A stretch of DNA of 64,000 nucleotides, taken from assembly GCF_000332195.1 (NCBI RefSeq), contig NZ_KB235922.1, positions 4,127,322 through 4,191,321 of the forward strand, read 5' to 3'. The position numbers and the translations under genes were made by a program. A model generated the notes under the pieces. That model had not been told where the DNA came from. It ran no database searches and saw only the letters and a list, made by a program, of their open reading frames with translations. Of the stretch, positions 5,825-62,193 are shown in pieces; position 1 is the first letter of the stretch, and every line of letters begins with the position of its first letter. Source of the stretch: Pleurocapsa sp. PCC 7319. GTDB taxonomy: Bacteria; Cyanobacteriota; Cyanobacteriia; Cyanobacteriales; Xenococcaceae.

Positions 5825-6424
5825 CTAGATCCTAAGCTCTATATCCATTAACTGTCCTTCTCTGACGAATTTAACGAGATTAGCTATTTCTTTCATTACA
5901 TATCTATAGGATTCGGGATACTGCCACCAATTATCAGGTTGACATTTCATGTAGCTTGCAGGACACCAAGTATAGTTGATCCATTTTGGATAGTATGTTT
6001 TTAGACTAAGCATCCCTCTTCTATAGTGCCAAGGAACGCTAATAACCAAAAGATGTTTAATTGTGTGAATTCCAAATTTATTTTCTAAAGTGAATAGAGA
6101 TGAAATGGCATTTTCTTTGGTATTGTTGGAAAGTTCCTCGGTTAATATGGCTTTTATAGGTATACCCATTTCTAAGGCTTTGTCTCTCATTGTCGCAGCT
6201 TCTGGATATGTGTACTTTCCATATTTAAGACCACCAGAAAAAAGGATATAGTTTGCTCTCTGTTGTTTGTATAAATCAACAGCTTTGTGAACTCGTTCTA
6301 TACCTCTACCACCGTAGACAAAAATGCAATCTCCTTGCTTGTTATTATCTTGCTCGTTACCAAATAATATTTTAGTTATCTGTTCTCTGGATAATTCATT
6401 GGCATCAATTTCTGATAATTTCAT
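5825..6424 (-). CDS. YdcF/SanA-like DUF218 protein
   Basis: A 199-residue cytoplasmic protein without a signal peptide. The DUF218 pattern is visible: CIFVYGGRGIERVHKAVDLY near residue 33, YILFSGG near 60, the acidic LTEELSNNTKENAISS near 98 and LLVISVPWHYRRGMLSLKTY near 125. The family binds nucleotides or S-adenosylmethionine-like ligands in E. coli YdcF; no reaction is established. A diverged, broken copy lies directly upstream (6460-7082), so this is a tandem duplication with this copy intact. Confidence 0.75.
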   Translation of the reverse strand: MKLSEIDANELSREQITKILFGNEQDNNKQGDCIFVYGGRGIERVHKAVDLYKQQRANYILFSGGLKYGKYTYPEAATMRDKALEMGIPIKAILTEELSNNTKENAISSLFTLENKFGIHTIKHLLVISVPWHYRRGMLSLKTYYPKWINYTWCPASYMKCQPDNWWQYPESYRYVMKEIANLVKFVREGQLMDIELRI

Positions 6425-6459
6425 TTTTCAAGGTCATTTTTAGAGGTTTTGTCCTTGCT

Positions 6460-7082
6460 CTAAATCTCAATTTCTATATCCATCAACTGTCCTTCTTTGA
6501 CAAATTTGACTATATTAGTTATTTCCTTAATTACGTATCGATTAGATTCAGGATACTGCCACCAATTGGTTGATTGATGTTTTATATAGTTTGCTGGACA
6601 CCAACTATAGTTTATCCATTGTGGATAATATGTTTTTAAACTAAGTACCCCCCTTCTATAGTTCCAGGGAATACTAACAACCAAAAGATGTTTAATTGTA
6701 TGAATACCAAATTCATTTTCTAAAGTAAACAGAGATGCGATGCCTTCGGCTAGGCTTCGCCAATCGCACCTTCTTTAACATGGTTTGAGCGATCTTCAAC
6801 TAAAATATTTTCTTCTGGTACACCTAGCTCTAAAGCACTATCTCGCATTTTAAACGATAGTGGGTAAGTGTACTTTCCATATCCCAACCCGCCAGTAAAT
6901 AAAATGTATTTGGCACGTTCTTGATTGTATAAATCAACAGCCTTGTGAACTCTTTCTATTCCTTTACCACCATAGACAAAAATACAGTCACCTTGCTTAT
7001 TATTATCTTGCTCGTTACCAAACAATATTTTAGTTATCTGTTCTTTTGATAATTCATTGACATCAATTTCTGATAGTTTCAT
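6460..7082 (-). pseudogene. Second YdcF-like gene, disrupted by a 23-nt repeat insertion
   Basis: The N-terminal 110 codons (7082 to 6750) parallel residues 1-105 of the intact neighbour, and the C-terminal part (ending 6460) parallels residues 105-199, including SLFTLENEFGIHTIKHLL. At the junction the neighbour reads KENAISSLF. Here the same place would read KEGAIASLF from a GCGATCGC octamer, but 23 extra bases sit between GCGAT and CGC. They shift the frame and add an in-frame TAG. Everything else is intact, so the lesion looks recent. Readthrough products are possible but the full protein cannot be made. Confidence 0.85.
6737..6767 (-). repeat. HIP1-splitting hairpin module (23-nt insert)
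   Basis: Read on the minus strand, GCGAT is followed by TGGCGAAGCC, then TAGCCGAAGGC, then ATCGC. Each half can form a small GCC/GGC stem with a GAA loop. Removing 23 nt restores GCGATCGC and the reading frame of the surrounding gene. It belongs with the modules at 18060, 45816 and 60515. Confidence 0.8.
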
Positions 7083-17194: not shown

Positions 17195-17971
17195 TCAATT
17201 AGCTAGAGTTAAAATATCTACTCCATCTTTAGTTACGGCGATGGTATGTTCAAACTGAGCTGACAGTTTGCCATCTTTAGTAATCGCTGTCCAACCATCA
17301 TCTAACATTACTGCTTCCCAAGTTCCCTCATTAATCATGGGTTCAATTGTAAAAACCATTCCAGGTTTGAGCTTCTTCTTCTGCCTTGGGTCATAGTAAT
17401 GTGGAATCTGAGGTGCGGTATGAAAAATATGACTAACCCCATGTCCGACAAAATCTCTCACCACAGAAAAACCATTCTGCTCAGCATATTCTTGAATTGC
17501 GGCACCAATATCACAAATTCTTGCTCCAGGTTTTACTGCGGCGATTCCTCTCCTTAAACATTCTTCAGTAACTTCGACTAACTTTCTTGCTTTAGGTGAA
17601 CAAGTCCCGACAAAAAAGGTTTTGGAAGTGTCTCCATGATAACCATCAACAATAGGAGTTACATCAATATTAATGATGTCTCCATCTTTTAATATTTGCT
17701 TGGCGTTGGGAATACCATGACAAATCACTTCATTTACACTTGTGCATAGTGAAGCAGTAAACGGATTATCCGCGGGACCATATCCTAAAGGTGCGCTTTT
17801 TGCCCCTTTTTCTTGAGTCCATTGTTCCGCTGCGTCATTAATTTCTAAAGTGCTTACTCCAGGTTTTACCATTGGTTCAAGAAAATCTAATAACTCTGCT
17901 GCCAAAGCTCCTGCTCGACGCATTTTTTCGATTTCTCGTCTGGAGAGTAAAGTGATTTGTTCGCTTCCCAT
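17195..17971 (-). CDS. map: Methionine aminopeptidase, type I
   Basis: A 258-residue cytosolic metalloprotease that removes initiator methionine. All metal and catalytic positions are visible: VICHGIPN (His), NIDVTPIVDGYHGDTSKTFF (two Asp), FVGHGVSHIFH (His), FTIEPMIN (Glu) and AQFEHTIAVT (Glu). The short N-terminus without a zinc finger marks the type Ia form. Start is ATG 17971. It lies between prmA (convergent) and the large acidic protein gene on the same strand, separated from the latter by a hairpin terminator. Confidence 0.95.
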   Translation of the reverse strand: MGSEQITLLSRREIEKMRRAGALAAELLDFLEPMVKPGVSTLEINDAAEQWTQEKGAKSAPLGYGPADNPFTASLCTSVNEVICHGIPNAKQILKDGDIINIDVTPIVDGYHGDTSKTFFVGTCSPKARKLVEVTEECLRRGIAAVKPGARICDIGAAIQEYAEQNGFSVVRDFVGHGVSHIFHTAPQIPHYYDPRQKKKLKPGMVFTIEPMINEGTWEAVMLDDGWTAITKDGKLSAQFEHTIAVTKDGVDILTLAN

Positions 17972-18059: not shown

Positions 18060-18091
18060 GCGATTGGGCAAAGCCCACACTTCGCGATCGC
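18060..18091 (+). repeat. HIP1-splitting hairpin module (24-nt unit)
   Basis: GCGAT is followed by TGGGCAAAGCCCACACTTC and then GCGATCGC. The GGGC-AAA-GCCC stem-loop sits directly after GCGAT-T. Deleting the 24-nt unit leaves a single GCGATCGC. Same architecture as the module at 60611-60642, with a different stem sequence. Confidence 0.85.
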
Positions 18092-18157: not shown

Positions 18158-18661
18158 TTAACTATTTATTTGATTCTCATGGTGAATTTCGCCCAATTCA
18201 TGATTTTCTTCAATCTCATGATCCTGCACAGAATCTAATAAATCTTTTAACTCTTCTAATGATTCATCAGAAATTTCATTGATCATATCAAGTTTTTTCT
18301 CAATGGATTCTAATTCTCCTTCAACAGAAGTATCTTGAAAACTAAATCCTTCGAGATCTGATTTGGAGTCAGCTTCATCTACGGCAGATTCACTTTCATC
18401 AGAAAACTCGCCCATCAACTCCAAAGACTCTTCTTCGGCTAAAGGAGTTTCATCAAAACCAAATTCTGGCAACTCCGATTCATCGACTGAATCGAACAAT
18501 GCTCCTACTTCTGTGATTGAATCAATCGATTCAGAATCCATCTCATCCACAGCAGATTCACTCTGAGCAGAAAACTCGTCCATCAAGTCCGGAAGACTCT
18601 TCTTCGACAGAAGTATCCTGGAAACTGAATTCTTCCTCATCCATGGGAGATTGACTCTCAT
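18158..18661 (-). pseudogene. C-terminal continuation of the acidic repeat protein, out of frame
   Basis: From about 18590 down, this frame continues the repeat protein encoded upstream: LMDEFSAQSESAVDEMDSES, then SITEVGALFDSVDESELPEF and FGFDETPLAEEESLELMGEF, ending in a non-repetitive helical tail (KLDMINEISDESLEELKDLL and onward). The first part of the open frame (about 25 codons) is the wrong frame of the repeat. Compared with neighbouring repeat copies there is one extra G at 18591-18592 (TCCGGAAGACTC against TCCGAAGACTC elsewhere). Either the gene is truly frameshifted or the extra base is a sequencing or assembly error. Joined, the protein would be about 1116 residues. Confidence 0.7.
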
Positions 18662-21509
18662 TAGCCAATTCTTCCATCAAGTCCGAAGACTCTTCTTCGG
18701 CTAAAGGAGTTTCATCAAAACTAAATTCTGGCAACTCCGATTCATCGACTGAATCGATCAATGCTCCTACTTCTGTGATTGAATCAATCGATTGAGAATC
18801 CATCTCATCCACAGCAGATTGACTCTCATTACTAAACTCGCCCATCAAGCCCAAAGACTCTTCTTCCAAGGGTGTATCCTGGAAACTGAATTCTTCCTCA
18901 TCCATGGGAGATTGACTCTCATTAGCCAATTCTTCAATCATGTCCGAAGACTCTTCGACAGCAGGAGTTTCATCCAAACTAAATTCTGGCAACTCCGATT
19001 CATCGACTGAATCGATCATTGCTCCTACTTCTGCAATTGAATCAATCGATTGAGAATCCATCTCATCCACAGCAGATTGACTCTCATTACTAAACTCGCC
19101 CATCAAGCCCAAAGACTCTTCTTCAACAGAAGTATCTTGTAAACTAAACTCTTCCTCATCTGATGGAGAATTCATTTCATCCACGGGAGATTCACTCTCA
19201 TCAGAAAAATCAGCCATTAACTCCGAAGACTCTTCTTCAACGGAAGTATCCTGGAAACTGAATTCTTCCTCATCCATGGGAGATTGACTCTCATTAGCCA
19301 ATTCTTCCATCAAGTCCGAAGAGTCTTCGACAACAGGAGTTTCATCAAAACTAAATTCTGGCAACTCCGATTCATCGACTGAATCGATCAATGCTCCTAC
19401 TTCTGTGATTGAATCAATCGATTGAGAATCCATCTCATTAATGGCAGATTGACTCTCATTACTAAACTCGCCCATCAAGCCCAAAGACTCTTCTTCAACA
19501 GAAGTATCTTGTAAACTAAACTCTTCCTCATCTGATGGAGAATTCATTTCATCCACGGAAGATTGACTCTCATTAGAAAACTCGCCCATTAAGTCAGAGG
19601 AATCTTGTTCAACTACAAGATTGTCATCAAAACCCAATTCTGATGATTCCGATTCATTAACTAAGTCCATCAACGATTCTACTTCTGTCATGGAATCACT
19701 AGATTCGGAATTCATCTCCTCTAAGGCAGATTGACTCTCATTAGAAAATTTATCCATCAAGTCAGGAGACTCTTCTTCTATCATGGAAGCATCTTGGAAC
19801 TCGAACTCTTCGGCATCTGATTCAGAGTTCATTTGATCCAGAGAAAATTCATTTTCCTCAAAACCCAATTCTGATAATTCCGATTCATTAACTGAGTCCA
19901 TCAACGATTCTACTTCTGTCATTGAATCACTAGATTCGGAATCCATCTCCTCTAAGGCAGATTGACTCTCATGAGAAAACTCATCCATCAAATCAGGAGA
20001 CTCTTCTTCTATCATGGAAGCATCTTGGAACTCGAACTCTTCGGCATCTGATTCGGAGTTCATTTGATCCAGAGAAGATTCATTTTCCTTAAAACCCAAT
20101 TCTGATAATTCCGATTCATTAACTGAGTCCATCAACGATTCTACTTCTGTCATGGAATCACTAGATTCGGAATTCATCTCCTCTAAGGCAGATTCACTTT
20201 CATTAGAAAACTCGCCCATTAAGTCAGAGGAATCTTGTTCAACTACAAGATTGTCATCAAAACCCAATTCTGATGATTCCGATTCATTAACTGAGTCCAT
20301 CAACGATTCTACTTCTGTCATTGAATTACTAGATTCGGAGTCCATCTCCTCTACAGTAGATTCAGTTTCATCAGCTAATTGACCCATCCATTCTGGAGAC
20401 TCTTCTTCTATTAGTAGTGGATCTTCAAAGCTAAATTCTTCGATATCCGATTCTGAATCCATTTCTTCAATAGGTGATTCCCTTTCATCAGCTAATTGAC
20501 CCATCCATTCTGGAGACTCTTCTTCTATTAGTAGGGGATCTTCAGAGCTAAATTCCTCGGCATCCGATTCGGAGTCCAGCTCTTCACCATCATCATTAAA
20601 TTCTTCAGATGATTGACTGTCAAACATTTTTAATTCGGACTCACCTAGAGCACTACTTAAATGTTCTATATCTGCATCAGAGTTAGTTACATCTTCACCT
20701 ATTTCAAAATTAGATTCTTCATCAATAATATTTACCTGTTTTTCTTCATCAGTATTTTTGTTTTCTATAGATAAATTATTGTCAAATCCCTCTAGCTCAG
20801 ATTCATCCAAAGAACCAATTAGTTTATCAACTATTTCTAGTTCTGAATCGTTATTTAATTCGATAGATTCTGATTGTTCGGAAACATCAGTAAATGGATT
20901 AATACTTAATTGATCTTGGTTTTCTATTACTTCATTATTAAATACTTCTATATCTGATTCATCTAAAGAATTAACAAGTTGTGCAACTTCTAAATCTGAA
21001 TCTAATGGAATTGCCTTTGAATTTACTTGTTGATCTTCATTATCGTGAGTAAGATTAACAAGATTTTGCTCAATAGGTGATATTACTTGATCTAATTGGG
21101 CTTGTTTAAAAGATAGTTGTTCTACTTCAGTTTCTAATTGTTGTTTTTGAGTATTTAAATCAGAAATTATAGTGATAAGCTGATTTTGCTCTGTTTGCAG
21201 TGAGTTTATCTCGGCTTCTACTGCATGCCTCTTAACATTAATTTCATTTAAAGATTGCTGTAATTGTGTATCTTGATTATTAATTTCTGAGATTTGCTTA
21301 ACTGATGAGCTATTATCTTGATTATTTTTAGAATCTTTTTTATTGTTAGTAACCAAAGCTCCAGCCACGCAAGCCATAGCTCCAACCGCACCAGTACCCT
21401 TTAAGGTTTTTTGAATATTATTATCTTTGACTAACATTCCAATACCAAAGGTTGCACCAAAAGCAAGGGAACTTAGCAGAATATTATTAACAACTTTTGC
21501 TGATTCCAT
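18558..21509 (-). CDS. Large acidic repeat protein with N-terminal membrane segments and coiled coil
   Basis: About 983 residues from ATG 21509 (the open frame extends five codons further to TTG). Residues 9-30 and 40-58 are hydrophobic (ILLSSLAFGATFGIGMLV; GAVGAMACVAGALV), about 70-160 is a Gln/Leu-rich coiled coil, and the remainder is Asp/Glu/Ser-rich repeat. The core motif is S-(M/I)-TEV-x2-L-x-DSV-(N/D)-ESE, with seven clear copies here and an eighth in the downstream frame. Older, diverged versions lie nearer the N-terminus (LEVAQLVNSLDESDIEVF, LEIVDKLIGSLDESELEGF). Between cores are EFSFQDTSVEEES and LM-x-EFSNESQS-type blocks. I do not recognise the family. It is probably membrane-tethered and largely disordered. 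Its frame ends early at 18558 because of the one-base lesion near 18591. Confidence 0.75.
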   Translation of the reverse strand: MESAKVVNNILLSSLAFGATFGIGMLVKDNNIQKTLKGTGAVGAMACVAGALVTNNKKDSKNNQDNSSSVKQISEINNQDTQLQQSLNEINVKRHAVEAEINSLQTEQNQLITIISDLNTQKQQLETEVEQLSFKQAQLDQVISPIEQNLVNLTHDNEDQQVNSKAIPLDSDLEVAQLVNSLDESDIEVFNNEVIENQDQLSINPFTDVSEQSESIELNNDSELEIVDKLIGSLDESELEGFDNNLSIENKNTDEEKQVNIIDEESNFEIGEDVTNSDADIEHLSSALGESELKMFDSQSSEEFNDDGEELDSESDAEEFSSEDPLLIEEESPEWMGQLADERESPIEEMDSESDIEEFSFEDPLLIEEESPEWMGQLADETESTVEEMDSESSNSMTEVESLMDSVNESESSELGFDDNLVVEQDSSDLMGEFSNESESALEEMNSESSDSMTEVESLMDSVNESELSELGFKENESSLDQMNSESDAEEFEFQDASMIEEESPDLMDEFSHESQSALEEMDSESSDSMTEVESLMDSVNESELSELGFEENEFSLDQMNSESDAEEFEFQDASMIEEESPDLMDKFSNESQSALEEMNSESSDSMTEVESLMDLVNESESSELGFDDNLVVEQDSSDLMGEFSNESQSSVDEMNSPSDEEEFSLQDTSVEEESLGLMGEFSNESQSAINEMDSQSIDSITEVGALIDSVDESELPEFSFDETPVVEDSSDLMEELANESQSPMDEEEFSFQDTSVEEESSELMADFSDESESPVDEMNSPSDEEEFSLQDTSVEEESLGLMGEFSNESQSAVDEMDSQSIDSIAEVGAMIDSVDESELPEFSLDETPAVEESSDMIEELANESQSPMDEEEFSFQDTPLEEESLGLMGEFSNESQSAVDEMDSQSIDSITEVGALIDSVDESELPEFSFDETPLAEEESSDLMEELANESQSPMDEEEFSFQDTSVEEESSGLDGRVFCSE

Positions 21510-21981
21510 TTTATGTAAGTTCAATATAAGTTAGCTTATTAAAGAAGTTATGTTTTCAGAGCTGTAGCTTCAAAAGCTACTTTACTTTGGGAAACATAGC
21601 AACCAATGGCTGATTGGTTCTGAAATACGAGAACTTCCTTAGTCTCATATTTAAGAGTTCCCAAATGTTTATTTAAAATTAACAGCTGAAGTCATCAGTA
21701 AAAAAATACTGAGATATCTAATTGATATTGGTAAACTTAATCCAAAAACTACTTGAAGAAGAAATTTGCGAATCACAAGAATATCAAGATGTTCACTCGA
21801 TTTAGATTTAATATTTATTAATCAGAGTCTTTTATTAACTCGAGCAAAATGCATAATTGAAAAGAGTAAATAACGGTTTTTCACGTTTTTAACTACAAAA
21901 TGTATTTTTAGAATTCTTGAAAAGACCATAAATCGGTTTAAGATAATGATGACGTAATAATACTTAATATTTACTCTGACT
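21510..21981. other. Divergent intergenic region, acidic protein / grxC
   Basis: About 470 AT-rich base pairs. A short inverted repeat GTAGCTTcaAAAGCTAC lies near 21565-21580, close to the start of the acidic protein gene. No open frame of interest and no recognised RNA was found. Promoters for both directions should lie here; the stretch TTAAGATAATGATGACGTAA about 30 bp before grxC is a plausible but unproven promoter. Confidence 0.4.
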
Positions 21982-43573: not shown

Positions 43574-45853
43574 ATGACCGCTATCTCTATCATAGAAAGT
43601 CGCAGTAACGAAGTTAATCTTCCTTATTGGTTACAAGAATGTCTAATTAATCAGCAAACAGAGCAGTCAGAATCGGACGCTACTGTAATTTGTCGGGCAT
43701 TTAATTTTGCTTATCAGCTTCACGAAGGTCAATATCGTAAGTCTGGAGAGCCTTATATCGCTCATCCGATAGCAGTAGCTAGTTTATTGCGGGATTTGGG
43801 GGGGGATAGCGTAACTATCGCCGCTGGATTTCTCCATGATGTGGTAGAAGACACGGAAGTAACTCCAGAAGAAATTGAGGAAATGTTTGGGGTACAAGTA
43901 CGTCAATTAGTCGAGGGCGTAACCAAACTATCTAAGTTTAATTTCTCTAGTACAACAGAGCGTCAGGCAGAGAACTTCCGACGCATGTTTCTCGCCATGG
44001 CAACGGATATTCGCGTGATTGTGGTTAAGTTAGCAGATCGACTGCATAATATGCGAACTCTAGATCATCTCAAGCCAGAAAAGCAACGACGCATTAGCCA
44101 AGAAACTAGAGAAATTTTTGCTCCCCTAGCAAATAGATTGGGTATTGGTCGATTTAAATGGGAACTAGAAGACCTCTGCTTTAAATATTTAGAGCCAGAA
44201 GCCTATGAAGAAATTAGAGCTCTAATTGCCGAAAGACGAGCTGATCGCGAAGCCAGAATTGTTCGAGTTACCGAAAAACTGCGATCGCGTTTAGAAGAGT
44301 TAAAAGTCAATGTGATTGAGCTTAAGGGAAGACCCAAGCATCTTTACGGCATTTATCAAAAAATGCAGCGACAACAGAAAGAATTTAGTCAAATTTATGA
44401 TATTGCTGCCTTCAGAATTATTGTTGAAACTAACGAAGAATGTTATCGTTCTCTAGCGGTAGTTCATGATGCCTTCAAACCCATTCCTGGAAGATTTAAG
44501 GATTATATTGGTTTACCCAAGCCTAATCGTTATCAGTCTCTGCACACTACTGTAGTTGGCTCCAACGGTCGTCCGATTGAAATCCAAATTCGGACCATGG
44601 AAATGCACCAAATCGCTGAATACGGGATTGCTGCTCATTGGAAGTATAAGGAAACAGGCTCCAGCAATACTAGGTTGTCCTCTGAAGATAATAAATTTAC
44701 TTGGTTGCGCCAATTATTAGAGTGGCAAAAAGATCTTAGCGACGCTCAAGAATATATGGAGAACGTGCGGGATAATCTATTTGAAGACGATGTTTATGTC
44801 TTTACTCCCGACGGTGATGTTATAGCTTTAGCCCAGGGAGCAACTCCTGTAGACTTTGCCTATCGTATTCACAGTGAAATTGGCAATCATATGAAGGGGG
44901 CGAGGGTAAATGGTCGCTGGTCGGTATTATCCAAGCCTCTAGAGAATGGGGATATTGTCGAAATCGTTACCCAGAAAAACAGCCATCCTAGTTTAGACTG
45001 GCTTAATTTTGTCGTCTCTCCTACAGCTCGTAACCGTATCCGTCAATGGTATAAGCGCTCGCACCGTGATGAGAATATTGCCCGAGGCAAAGAATTATTG
45101 GAAAAAGAAATGGGGAAAAGTGGTTTTGACTCTTTACTCAAATCAGAGCCAATGCTAACGGTAGCGAAACGTTGTAACTATCACTCTGTAGAAGATTTAC
45201 TGGCAGCTTTAGGATATGGCGAAATTACTCAAAATCATGTGGTTAATCGTCTGCGGGATGTTGTTAAAGAACAACAGCCAGTTGAAGAAGCAGAAGTAGC
45301 CAATGAAGAAGATTTAGAAATCTCCAACTATACTCCCAATCAGATTGAGAAGCGTGAAGGTGGAAAGTCTCCCATAGTTGGGGTGGAAGGGATGTTGTAC
45401 CACATAGCAGGCTGTTGTAAACCTTTGCCTGGAGAATCTATTATTGGTGCAGTAACTCTCAGTTCGAGAGGAATATCTATTCATCGTCAGGGCTGTCATA
45501 ATGTTGAGAAAATTCCAGGAGAACGTATTATCCCTGTTAGCTGGAATGGAGGCGGCGAAGAAGGAAAGCCACTAACTTATCCGGTAGATATTCAAATCGA
45601 AGCTATGGATCGGGTTGGGGTCTTAAAAGATATCTTGGCACGCTTAAGCGATCGCGGTATTAACATTCGTAATGCTGGAGTTAAGACTAGCCCTAATAAA
45701 CCAGCCCTAATTTCCCTAAGTATAGACATTAGAGATCGCCAACAACTAGAGTATATTTCTCAACGAATTAAAAGTATGAGTGATATTCTCAATATTCGTC
45801 GAGTGATTGATTCTGGCGATTGCGCTTCGCGCACCAGCAGAGCTGATCGCTAA
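43574..45853 (+). CDS. Bifunctional (p)ppGpp synthetase/hydrolase Rel
   Basis: A 759-residue Rel/SpoT protein controlling the stringent response. N-terminal HD hydrolase: HEGQYRKSGEPYIAHPIAVA, AAGFLHDVVEDTEVTPEEIE and VKLADRLHNMRTLDHLKPEK, all intact. Synthetase: GRPKHLYGIYQKMQRQQKEF and YDIAAFRIIV. TGS domain from DDVYVFTPDGDVIALAQGAT; C-terminal zinc-finger-like and ACT domains (EAMDRVGVLKDILARLSDRG). The last residues GDCASRTSRADR come from a 27-nt in-frame repeat insertion into a GCGATCGC that otherwise would read GDR-stop. Confidence 0.96.
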   Translation: MTAISIIESRSNEVNLPYWLQECLINQQTEQSESDATVICRAFNFAYQLHEGQYRKSGEPYIAHPIAVASLLRDLGGDSVTIAAGFLHDVVEDTEVTPEEIEEMFGVQVRQLVEGVTKLSKFNFSSTTERQAENFRRMFLAMATDIRVIVVKLADRLHNMRTLDHLKPEKQRRISQETREIFAPLANRLGIGRFKWELEDLCFKYLEPEAYEEIRALIAERRADREARIVRVTEKLRSRLEELKVNVIELKGRPKHLYGIYQKMQRQQKEFSQIYDIAAFRIIVETNEECYRSLAVVHDAFKPIPGRFKDYIGLPKPNRYQSLHTTVVGSNGRPIEIQIRTMEMHQIAEYGIAAHWKYKETGSSNTRLSSEDNKFTWLRQLLEWQKDLSDAQEYMENVRDNLFEDDVYVFTPDGDVIALAQGATPVDFAYRIHSEIGNHMKGARVNGRWSVLSKPLENGDIVEIVTQKNSHPSLDWLNFVVSPTARNRIRQWYKRSHRDENIARGKELLEKEMGKSGFDSLLKSEPMLTVAKRCNYHSVEDLLAALGYGEITQNHVVNRLRDVVKEQQPVEEAEVANEEDLEISNYTPNQIEKREGGKSPIVGVEGMLYHIAGCCKPLPGESIIGAVTLSSRGISIHRQGCHNVEKIPGERIIPVSWNGGGEEGKPLTYPVDIQIEAMDRVGVLKDILARLSDRGINIRNAGVKTSPNKPALISLSIDIRDRQQLEYISQRIKSMSDILNIRRVIDSGDCASRTSRADR
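45816..45850 (+). repeat. HIP1-splitting hairpin module inside the rel 3' end (27-nt unit)
   Basis: GCGAT is followed by T-GCGC-TTC-GCGC (4-bp stem, 3-nt loop), then ACCAGCAGAGCTGAT and CGC-TAA. Removing bases 45821-45847 restores GGCGATCGCTAA. As 27 is a multiple of three, the frame and stop are kept and nine residues are added. Confidence 0.85.
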
Positions 45854-59588: not shown

Positions 59589-60476
59589 ATGACGACCTTA
59601 CTTCCTGCTGTATTGCCTGTAGGCTTGATAATCTTGATTGGCTTTATTGCTGGTCGTACTTTGCCGCTACAACGCTCCACCCTATCTCAATTAGCATTAT
59701 TTGTCTTATCTCCAGCGTTGGTCATTGATAGTTTGTATCGTACTCAATTATCTATTGCTAGCTCGGGAAAATTACTAATTGGTTTTGCCATTACTTCTGG
59801 TTTAATTTATGCTGCCGTAAAGCTAATTTGTAAAATCTTGCGCCTGCCCCCATCGACAACTACTGGCTTAACCGCCACTGTTTTATTTCCCAATAATGGC
59901 AATATGGGTTTACCAGTAGTTACTTTTGCCTTGGGTGATCCAGGTTTAGAAAGAGCCGTAATTTATATGATCGGCTCGAGTTTTCTGATGTTCTGTTTTG
60001 GTCCAGCTATCATTCAGGGCAAGGGAATATTGCCAGGTTTAAAATTAATCCTTAAGCTACCTCTGATCTGGGCACTTTTATGCGGTGTAGGTTTACGTTT
60101 GTTCTCAATTCAATTTCCCTTTGACCTAGATCAGGGCGTTCAACAGTTAGGTGCAGCAGCTATTCCTATCGCTTTGATCTTACTGGGAATACAGTTGTCA
60201 GAGACTCGCTTTCAACCTGGGGTCAAAGAAATCTTGGGTGCGATCGCCCGTTTATTAGTCGCTCCTCTGATTGCTTTTTATGTGGGGAGATTTCTACAGT
60301 TAGAGCCTCTCAATTTACAGGTATTAGTTTTACAAAGTGCGATGCCCACTGCTGTAAATTCTTTCATCTTAGTTAGTGAATTTGGTGGCGATCAAGAGCT
60401 AGTAGCCAAAGCGATCGTCACTTCTACTTTGATGAGTTTTATTACTTTACCGTTAGTTTTATCCTTACTGTTGTAA
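59589..60476 (+). CDS. AEC-family (auxin efflux carrier-like) transporter
   Basis: A 295-residue membrane protein with about ten helices in two repeats. Landmarks: PVGLIILIGFIAGRTLPLQR in helix 1, LFPNNGNMGLPVVTFALGDP with the NxGNMGxP motif in helix 4, and LQSAMPTAVNSFILVSEFGG in the second half. AEC proteins export organic acids or hormones; the substrate is unknown. The start of the adjacent PHP gene is divergent, 190 bp upstream. Confidence 0.88.
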   Translation: MTTLLPAVLPVGLIILIGFIAGRTLPLQRSTLSQLALFVLSPALVIDSLYRTQLSIASSGKLLIGFAITSGLIYAAVKLICKILRLPPSTTTGLTATVLFPNNGNMGLPVVTFALGDPGLERAVIYMIGSSFLMFCFGPAIIQGKGILPGLKLILKLPLIWALLCGVGLRLFSIQFPFDLDQGVQQLGAAAIPIALILLGIQLSETRFQPGVKEILGAIARLLVAPLIAFYVGRFLQLEPLNLQVLVLQSAMPTAVNSFILVSEFGGDQELVAKAIVTSTLMSFITLPLVLSLLL

Positions 60477-60514
60477 TTATCTTTTAGCAGAATTAAAGCA
60501 ATTTTGGTATGAGT

Positions 60515-60642
60515 GCGATTGACTCTGCCACCGCCCAGAGGGCGATTCCCCGCCGGGCTTGCACTTGAATGGGTGTACGCTCCGCGATTGAGCGAAGCTC
60601 ACCGCCATAGGCGATTGGACTCCGTCCAGGCTCCGCGATCGC
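60515..60642 (+). repeat. Chain of HIP1-linked hairpin modules
   Basis: GCGAT occurs at 60515, 60542, 60584, 60611 and 60635, i.e. at spacings 27, 42, 27 and 24, the final one being part of an intact GCGATCGC. Units after GCGAT-T include GAGC-GAA-GCTC and GGAC-TCC-GTCC stem-loops. The unit lengths 27 and 24 equal those of the single modules at 45816 and 18060. The block occupies most of the 244-bp gap between the AEC and PaO genes. Confidence 0.8.
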
Positions 60643-60720
60643 TTATTTTTCAAACAAAATTTAACTTACACTAAATAAAAGTTAACTTATTTTAATACTA
60701 GATAATTTTAGTTTTCCATT

Positions 60721-62193
60721 ATGGCTATTGAAACTAACCTCCAAAACAATTTAAATAGCAAAACCACATCCTTTTTAAAGGAAGCAGAAACAACGTTTCA
60801 ATGGACGAAGCAATGGTATCCAGTAGCCGTAGCTGAATTTCTGGCTCCGTTTAGACCCCATCCAATACAGTTATTGGGAAAAGACTTGGTATTATGGCAA
60901 GATAATGCTGAGAAATGGCATTGCTTTGAGGATTTTTGTCCTCATCGGTTAGCACCATTGTCTGAAGGGAGAGTAGAATCAGATGGCACACTATTGTGTG
61001 CTTATCATGCTTGGCGTTTTGATGGAGAGGGAAATTGTGTTGGCATTCCACAATCTAAAAATAAAGAAACTGAGACCAAAAACTGCGCTAATGATAAGTC
61101 CTCTGCTGTTGTTTATCCCACTCAAGAACTTCAGGGTTTAGTTTGGGTGTGGGCTGAATCTGGAGAACAAGCACAACTGGAAAGTCAATTAAGACAACCT
61201 CGCACTATTCCCGAACTGGATGATAATTCTGGCAAAGTTGTTAAACCTTTTTGGAATATTCGAGATTTGCCCTATGGTTGGGATTTTTTTATGGAAAATG
61301 TCGCCGATCCCGCCCATGTTCCCGTTTCCCACCATGGTATTATGGGTAGCCGTTACGAAGATGCTAAGTATTACGATATGCATCGCCTAAGAGAAATGTC
61401 TACTCAAGAGGGATTCTCGTTTGAGATAACGCCCACTGCACCTACTGTTGAGCGCGCTATTAATGATTTTCGACCACCCTGTCAGATGAGGATTGTCACC
61501 AGCTATAAAGATGGGGGGATGCTAATCTTGGCGTTGTATGCTGTTCCCACTCGTCCCGGTTGGTGTCGTCATATTGGTAGGCAGATTTTAGTTAAAAATG
61601 ATCGGGGTAAAACTCCCCCAGGTTTAGGATTTTTTGCCCTACCGATGCCAATTTGGTTGGGTCATGTATTAGCTTCTTTGTTTTTGCACCAAGATTTAGT
61701 ATTTTTGCACTATCAAGAAAAAATTGTCTCGAAAAAAAGTAAAAATAGATGGTTAGATGCAGTTTATACTCCTAATCCTCAAGATAAAGCGATCGTTACT
61801 TTTCGTCAGTGGTTGGCAAGGAAAGCTGGAGGGGGAGTAGCCTGGGATGCAGATTGTAATAGTCAGCTACCCCATCCCGAATTAGATAAAGAAAAATTGT
61901 TTGATGTTTGGGCAACTCACACTCAACATTGTCGAGTTTGCCAAGATGCTCTTAAAAATATCAATCGTTTAACAGTATTAAGTTATATTGGAGCGATCGC
62001 CTGTTTGTTTCTAGCTTTATTTATAGATGAACGCTATCTTGCCACCGAAGGTCTGAAAGAAGTGGTATTTCCATCTTTAGAATTTTGGATAGCAATTATA
62101 AGTGCAATAATTTTGGCAACAGGAGGATATTTATTAAAGAAACTGAGTCGGCTATTTTATGTTTACAAGTTTAGCCATGTCGACAATGATTGA
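60721..62193 (+). CDS. Rieske non-haem iron oxygenase, pheophorbide a oxygenase (PaO) type
   Basis: A 490-residue protein. Rieske motifs FCPHRLAPLSEGRV (CxH) near residue 78 and CAYHAWRFDGEGN (CxxH) near 97; mononuclear iron site ENVADPAHVPVSHHG near 195. The PaO C-terminal domain contains HTQHCRVCQDALKN, the CxxC redox motif shared with PaO, PTC52 and Tic55, followed by two hydrophobic helices (about 422-440, 455-475) for membrane attachment. The Arabidopsis member opens the chlorin ring during chlorophyll breakdown; in cyanobacteria the substrate is unsettled. Confidence 0.92.
   Translation: MAIETNLQNNLNSKTTSFLKEAETTFQWTKQWYPVAVAEFLAPFRPHPIQLLGKDLVLWQDNAEKWHCFEDFCPHRLAPLSEGRVESDGTLLCAYHAWRFDGEGNCVGIPQSKNKETETKNCANDKSSAVVYPTQELQGLVWVWAESGEQAQLESQLRQPRTIPELDDNSGKVVKPFWNIRDLPYGWDFFMENVADPAHVPVSHHGIMGSRYEDAKYYDMHRLREMSTQEGFSFEITPTAPTVERAINDFRPPCQMRIVTSYKDGGMLILALYAVPTRPGWCRHIGRQILVKNDRGKTPPGLGFFALPMPIWLGHVLASLFLHQDLVFLHYQEKIVSKKSKNRWLDAVYTPNPQDKAIVTFRQWLARKAGGGVAWDADCNSQLPHPELDKEKLFDVWATHTQHCRVCQDALKNINRLTVLSYIGAIACLFLALFIDERYLATEGLKEVVFPSLEFWIAIISAIILATGGYLLKKLSRLFYVYKFSHVDND

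Follow-up and report, generated by a model that had tools for sequence, protein, structure and literature searches.

We have found that HIP1, the palindrome GCG-AT-CGC (GCGATCGC) and the most frequent octamer of the Pleurocapsa sp. PCC 7319 genome, is split in this genome by very small inserts. The architecture is GCG-AT-(hairpin, 0-1 nt, hairpin)-AT-CGC, with AT on both sides of the insert at the palindrome centre. These units are very probably very small mobile repeats of the SDR5 type, a type whose host range and anatomy they extend; they were matched to SDR5 by description, not by sequence. The evidence comprises the insertions and the empty HIP1 sites opposite them, covariation, the HIP1 context of the class with 25-nt inserts, differences in copy number and identical inserts elsewhere.

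The stretch of DNA that was analysed (64,000 nt; the window) lies on a 6.39-Mb contig of the 7.39-Mb genome. Chance levels were also determined for a 2-Mb part of its chromosome (27% of the genome; "the 2 Mb"). There are two main classes of inserts, both with triloops: inserts of 25 nt (27 nt gained) have stems of 5 + 4 bp, and inserts of 22 nt (24 nt gained) have stems of 5 + 3 bp; inserts of 21 and 23 nt are rarer. The total gain is 23, 24 or 27 nt in the window, while in the 2 Mb the main classes are 24 and 27 nt. Gains of 25 and 30 nt are rare. Covariance model R1 represents the 27-nt class and model R2 the 24-nt class. Five places were described in the first-pass annotation (at 6737, 18060 and 45816 and within 60515-60642), and all five read as quoted there. 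The features of the window are as follows.

5825..6424, minus strand: tandem DUF218-type paralogue that lacks the 23-nt insert; the empty position is near 6107
6737..6767, minus strand: single 23-nt insertion, carried by the second member of the tandem DUF218-type pair
18060..18091, plus strand: single 24-nt insertion; R2, 47.2 bits
45816..45850, plus strand: single 27-nt insertion; a RelA/SpoT-type gene (43574-45853) carries it at its 3′ end; R1, 53.2 bits
60240..60247, plus strand: HIP1 of the ordinary, uninterrupted kind, located upstream of the chain; the window has 51
60515..60546, plus strand: chain unit 1, GCGAT, a 25-nt insert (60520-60544) and AT; R1, 24.6 bits
60542..60588, plus strand: chain unit 2, GCGAT and a 40-nt insert (60547-60586); the 42-nt unit
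60584..60615, plus strand: chain unit 3, GCGAT, a 25-nt double hairpin (60589-60613) and AT; R1, 47.3 bits
60611..60642, plus strand: chain unit 4, GCGAT, a 22-nt insert (60616-60637) and ATCGC; R2, 54.5 bits

GCGAT stands at 60515, 60542, 60584, 60611 and 60635, in agreement with the spacings of 27, 42, 27 and 24 first reported for the chain, and deletion of 23, 24 or 27 nt restores the octamer as had been claimed: GCGATCGC results when 23 nt are taken out at 6737 (minus strand), 24 nt at 18060 and at 60611, and 27 nt at 45816. What had been read as a short tail behind the stem-loop is actually a second hairpin. The order proposed for the units (GCGAT, then T, then a stem-loop) holds as an architecture, but the leading T merely reflects orientation, and in chain unit 1 the first stem is damaged, the second hairpin being GCCC-AGA-GGGC. 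The insert of chain unit 3 is TGAGC-GAA-GCTCA / C / CGCC-ATA-GGCG, and chain unit 4 terminates in an intact HIP1 (60635-60642). The 42-nt unit looks like one of the 24-nt type that has gained 18 nt in its interior; it has relatives elsewhere in the genome, one within the chain at C7:4004110-4004336 and others such as that at C7:5514484-5514530 (91%). The former locus is itself a chain of about eight HIP1 units.

The insert at 45816 is a perfect double hairpin (TGCGC-TTC-GCGCA / C / CAGC-AGA-GCTG). It is located near the C-terminus of the RelA/SpoT-type protein, downstream of the ACT domain. The insertion at 18060 is outside the listed ORFs of at least 90 aa (the nearest ORF end is at 17971 and the nearest beginning at 18158); farther on, at 18558-21524, there is a long acidic repeat protein of 988 aa with many ESSDSMTEVESLMDSVNESELSELGF-like units. 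A PLSDB search with the entire chain gave no match, and in Rfam the region 60400-60750 produced a sub-threshold match alone (23.2 bits vs a gathering threshold of 80).

The window contains 51 HIP1 octamers, with 0.31 expected and a maximum of 3 in 100 shuffles, and the units might be a chance pattern of such a HIP1-rich genome. Two results would suit this explanation: mini-hairpins in general (4-bp stem, triloop) are not in excess in the 2 Mb (9769 vs 9917 in one Markov sequence), and a loose scan for a single hairpin across all GCGAT pairs stays at chance (76/478 vs 73.8 shuffled). The signal emerges once full anchors and the two-hairpin split are both demanded. Among the GCGAT-N18..34-ATCGC stretches of the window, four of six form double hairpins with no more than one mismatch (mean 0.16 and maximum 1 when the inserts are shuffled); in the 2 Mb the fraction is 18/161 (100 shuffles, mean 1.5 and maximum 5), and 59 anagram anchor pairs used as a control gave a mean of 0.15 double hairpins and at most 2. 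A count against chance, which the first-pass annotation had proposed as a check, is therefore positive for the full double-hairpin architecture and negative for the loose one-hairpin scan. The anchored test refutes the chance explanation, which also faces the orthologous empty sites described below and to which we assign practically no probability. The two length classes are visible in the same material: length 22 occurs 14 times and length 25 occurs 29 times among the 161 anchored stretches, and in the 2 Mb the distance between a GCGATT and the GCGAT that follows it has its peaks at 24 (9 cases) and 27 (14 cases), with no more than 7 cases at any other spacing from 6 to 69.

Perfect GC-rich double hairpins of the 5+1+4 or 4+1+5 form were also collected from the 2 Mb, and 14 of the 17 rows obtained are situated between AT and AT; seven of these 14 are in GCGAT..ATCGC, five have one side intact and two have both sides altered. 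The other three rows (two places) have arms that consist of AGCT heptamer repeats; they belong to something else. Another mini-hairpin unit, GCGGCTCTGCCGC, occurs repeatedly in the 2 Mb beside AGCTTAT-type heptamer tandem repeats (for example at C7:222815, 328370, 469552, 666414 and 721217); it seems to represent a further family of small dispersed repeats, one that is not tied to HIP1. Short tandem repeats with a seven-base period (GTAATCA, AACTCCG, GCTAATG and others) are abundant in the 2 Mb; presumably they are the same kind of sequence as the STRRs of the Nostoc type.

Empty sites in relatives identify HIP1 as the insertion target, as the first-pass annotation had supposed. In the SLT-type gene (C7:1460188-1462287) the insert is absent in 11/11 same-genus orthologues, six of which read GCGATCGC at the site, while one (G008) has 9 other nt there; these orthologues come from 11 of the 12 sister genomes, the match in the remaining one (G005) being a 47% paralogue that was left uncounted. 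In the HPPD-like gene the insert is absent in 3/3 close family orthologues (79-81% identity), two of which read GCGATCGC; the remaining matches, which are distant homologues or paralogues, were not counted. The inserts in both genes map onto the octamer, and the alignment of orthologues, the second check proposed initially, thus revealed the uninterrupted sequence. A polyketide synthase gene of Nostoc sp. XA010 carries 24 extra nt that are absent in all four homologues aligned (five had been taken from 35 matching records), with the gap after GCG. At this empty site HIP1 is intact in one of the four homologues and three read GCGATCGG; with the right flank of the insert being ATCGG, the target may have been a near-HIP1 sequence. 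As AT is present on both sides of an insert, placements after nucleotide 3, 4 or 5 of HIP1 are equivalent. None of the 10 same-genus permease loci compared contained the oxygenase gene that lies downstream of the chain, and there is consequently no orthologous empty site for the chain itself, so that other loci were used; the nearest named relatives listed for this gene are from Hyella patelloides (77%) and Xenococcus PCC 7305 (75%), in a list that may omit records of the present genome or of a very close one.

A further empty position is provided by the tandem DUF218-type copies (5825-7082, minus strand), which align over 624 columns at 77% identity, their sole indel being the 23-nt gap; the position near 6107 reads GCCATTTC, not HIP1. 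The insertion puts a stop into the gene copy, whose listed ORF has 110 aa, not 199. Identical 25-nt and 22-nt inserts are present at different flanks, some of them across different species. Together with the absence of the insert in 11/11 SLT-type orthologues and the broken gene copy, these identical inserts show that the elements have been mobile recently. Copies with an insert length that is a multiple of three are in open frames of at least 200 aa in 53/119 cases, compared with 1/10 of the others (p = 0.04); in-frame copies lengthen proteins by 8 or 9 residues.

Copy number varies sharply between species of one genus. At E ≤ 0.01 this genome has at least 119 matches to R1 and at least 54 to R2, and the 12 other same-genus genomes have from 0 to at least 142 (R1) and from 0 to at least 80 (R2), five genomes having no more than five in either; with 150 candidates scored per genome the high counts are lower bounds, and R1 and R2 matches may overlap or contain chance matches. 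HIP1 is present in all 12 sister genomes at 0.67-1.70 per kb, and the low-copy genomes are not poorer in it (5.6-13 kb of loci sampled in each). Among 34 named genomes surveyed with the 24-nt model, the only one run, 16 have a match at E ≤ 0.001: Moorena bouillonii PNG has 88, Tolypothrix campylonemoides has 9 and the rest have at most 5.

The stem sequence differs between copies while pairing stays, a feature already noticed in the first pass. The 41 distinct 25-nt inserts have 96.5% Watson-Crick cells vs 71.4% after shuffling (maximum 75.6% in 500 shuffles), and for the 56 distinct 22-nt inserts the values are 94.4% vs 69.2% (maximum 73.0%; 500 shuffles). In 17 hand-chosen rows (16 of the 41 distinct 25-nt inserts plus one other), the covariation score is 0.608 vs 0.228 shuffled, with 0/500 shuffles as high and slid controls at no more than 0.208, and both sides have changed in 8/9 pairs; the number of further pair types, one of five measures, is not over chance in these rows (11 vs 9.6; 105/500). 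Covariation scores are inflated, since the models or scripts by which the copies were picked favour pairing and since the 17 rows were chosen by hand. The anchored double-hairpin test and the three-way test at length 25 are free of this selection bias.

This three-way test concerns the HIP1 halves. When two 27-nt copies are folded as single strands, a third arm is formed by the halves and a three-way junction results; the folds of two 24-nt copies are less clean. With no filter on structure, 11/29 stretches of length 25 form the three-way fold vs 2.31 after shuffling (0/100 as high); there is no excess at length 22 (1/14 vs 0.51 shuffled) and no enrichment across lengths 18-34 as a whole (14/161 vs 10.9 shuffled). 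In the predicted folds of the 25-nt class, then, the HIP1 halves can pair (5 bp), and element and target together can make a three-way junction.

The same-genus and chain data bear on whether a mobile element is needed at all. Elements with a GCG end make up 24/27 of chained and 68/102 of unchained elements (Fisher p = 0.03, counted by element); counted by element end, the same data show no effect (p = 0.84), with chain adjacency being assigned loosely, by spacing. Elements ending in GCG recreate GCGATCGC, and hence chains can grow by insertion. The chain growth by new copies suggested in the first-pass annotation is possible on these grounds, but chains inspected by eye have all their units in one direction, an arrangement that a palindromic target does not force, and local duplication or recombination is therefore at least as likely. 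One could go further and propose that hairpin-primed repair or template switching at HIP1 breaks makes the hairpins in place, with no mobile element involved. One-direction chains and the very different stem sequences of the copies would agree with such local mutation. The identical inserts at different flanks and in different species, the existence of two main length classes (22 and 25) and the patchy copy number among sister genomes that all have HIP1 speak against it, and we consider it improbable.

The reading that we prefer is one of non-autonomous inserts of 21-25 nt (mainly 22 and 25) that would be mobilised in trans and would enter HIP1 at its central AT, the insertion leaving AT on both sides. 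Each insert is a pair of back-to-back triloop hairpins whose stem sequence changes while its pairing stays. The mobilising enzyme would presumably recognise the folded form, as DNA or RNA, and entry may proceed by a two-base staggered break at HIP1. PvuI and AsiSI cut with a two-base AT stagger at the HIP1 centre. A search for a mobilising gene found none. HIP1 may even be a structural part of the element, the AT stagger and the double hairpin building a three-way DNA or RNA junction that is spread by a HIP1-cutting activity; we regard this version as rather unlikely. If it were true, HIP1 would be a marked breakage site, and there would be a handle on why HIP1 exists.

As to the enzyme, a Y1 (HUH) single-strand transposase of the IS200/IS605 or RAYT kind could act in trans on the hairpins, with cleavage 3′ of GCGAT. 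Enzymes of this class usually work on small subterminal hairpins. Across 13 same-genus genomes, with kinship and IS load ignored, the Spearman coefficient between Y1 counts and copy number is 0.66 for R1 (p = 0.015) and 0.47 for R2 (p = 0.11, not significant). As these are 13 genomes with no correction for kinship, the correlation is a hint only; genome size also correlates (0.46, not significant). RAYTs have been proposed to mobilise REPINs in trans. One observation on the Y1 loci of this genome speaks against such an enzyme: of four groups compared, two have a left end that could be read, and in these the shared sequence starts with TTAG instead of GCGAT. The genome has 27 Y1 transposase matches in total, and one group consists of seven near-identical copies. 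Taking both sides into account, we view a Y1 enzyme as possible but not probable. Movement through an RNA copy, by a reverse transcriptase or group II intron machinery, has about the same tentative standing. Paired covariation in both arms would suit a folded RNA, and reverse-transcriptase matches occur in 13/13 genomes; their counts do not follow copy number, however (Spearman -0.06 for R1 and -0.25 for R2), and the genome richest in such matches (G007, with 26) has 1 and 5 element matches.

Whatever moves them, inserts of 21-25 nt put these non-autonomous elements at the bottom of the size range of mobile DNA. The behaviour has been known from Nostoc since 2008; here it appears in a different cyanobacterial lineage, where copies are many and empty sites clear. 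With sister species that range from none to well over a hundred matches, and with conserved genes that offer clean empty sites, this genus is a tractable one for finding the enzyme, and it offers a route to asking what acts at HIP1.

The elements can be compared with three known kinds of small repeats. In common with REPs and REPINs they are short, palindromic, non-autonomous mobile DNA. The REPs of RAYT-linked families carry GTAG or CGTC tags, and REPINs are hairpin-forming doublets with RAYT (PMC3116915, PMC3733652). The present elements have no GTAG or CGTC tag and no linked RAYT, enter at HIP1 and have hairpins that start directly at the AT of HIP1. MITEs, of which Nezha is a cyanobacterial case (PMC3733652), are likewise non-autonomous and mobilised in trans. 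They measure 70-300 bp and have terminal inverted repeats of 15-30 bp, in contrast to the 21-25 nt of the inserts described here.

The closest likeness is to SDR5 (small dispersed repeat 5). Elhai in 2008 reportedly described in Nostoc punctiforme families of 21-27 nt among which SDR5 is said to occur only in HIP1, to keep its structure by compensatory changes and to be thought mobile; SDR4 and SDR6 are said to share its predicted structure and are not known to be tied to HIP1, and movement through an RNA copy was reportedly suggested for some SDRs. The first-pass annotation had considered a variable-stem family locked to HIP1 not to be a described class. This novelty claim fails because SDR5 has been described as entering HIP1 at a precise point, between its nucleotides 3 and 4 (Elhai et al. 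2008, doi 10.1101/gr.074336.107, as cited by PMC4390886). The literature search for mentions of SDR5 led to this article alone, papers bearing just that word being outside its scope; no paper on such elements in the present lineage was found, which says little, with subscription journals mostly uncovered.

The insertion point is that of SDR5 in the SLT-type and HPPD-like genes and in the Nostoc polyketide synthase gene, where the gap follows GCG; the entry point of the 24-nt copy of Nostoc sp. XA010 is compatible with SDR5 as well. The restriction to HIP1 that SDR5 is said to have is paralleled by the 14/14 AT-flanked perfect 5+1+4 or 4+1+5 hairpins without heptamer arms. Gains of 23, 24 and 27 nt are within the reported 21-27 nt, which the 42-nt chain unit exceeds. 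Compensatory changes keep the stems, as is reported for SDR5, with a selection bias towards pairing in the copies scored here. The differences from the SDR5 of Nostoc are a host lineage near Hyella and Xenococcus, a 27-nt class equal in prominence to the 24-nt one, and a copy number of more than 100 model matches. As the family agrees with SDR5 in where it enters, in its length, in its confinement to HIP1, in its paired structure and in its mobility, we have filed it as SDR5-type.
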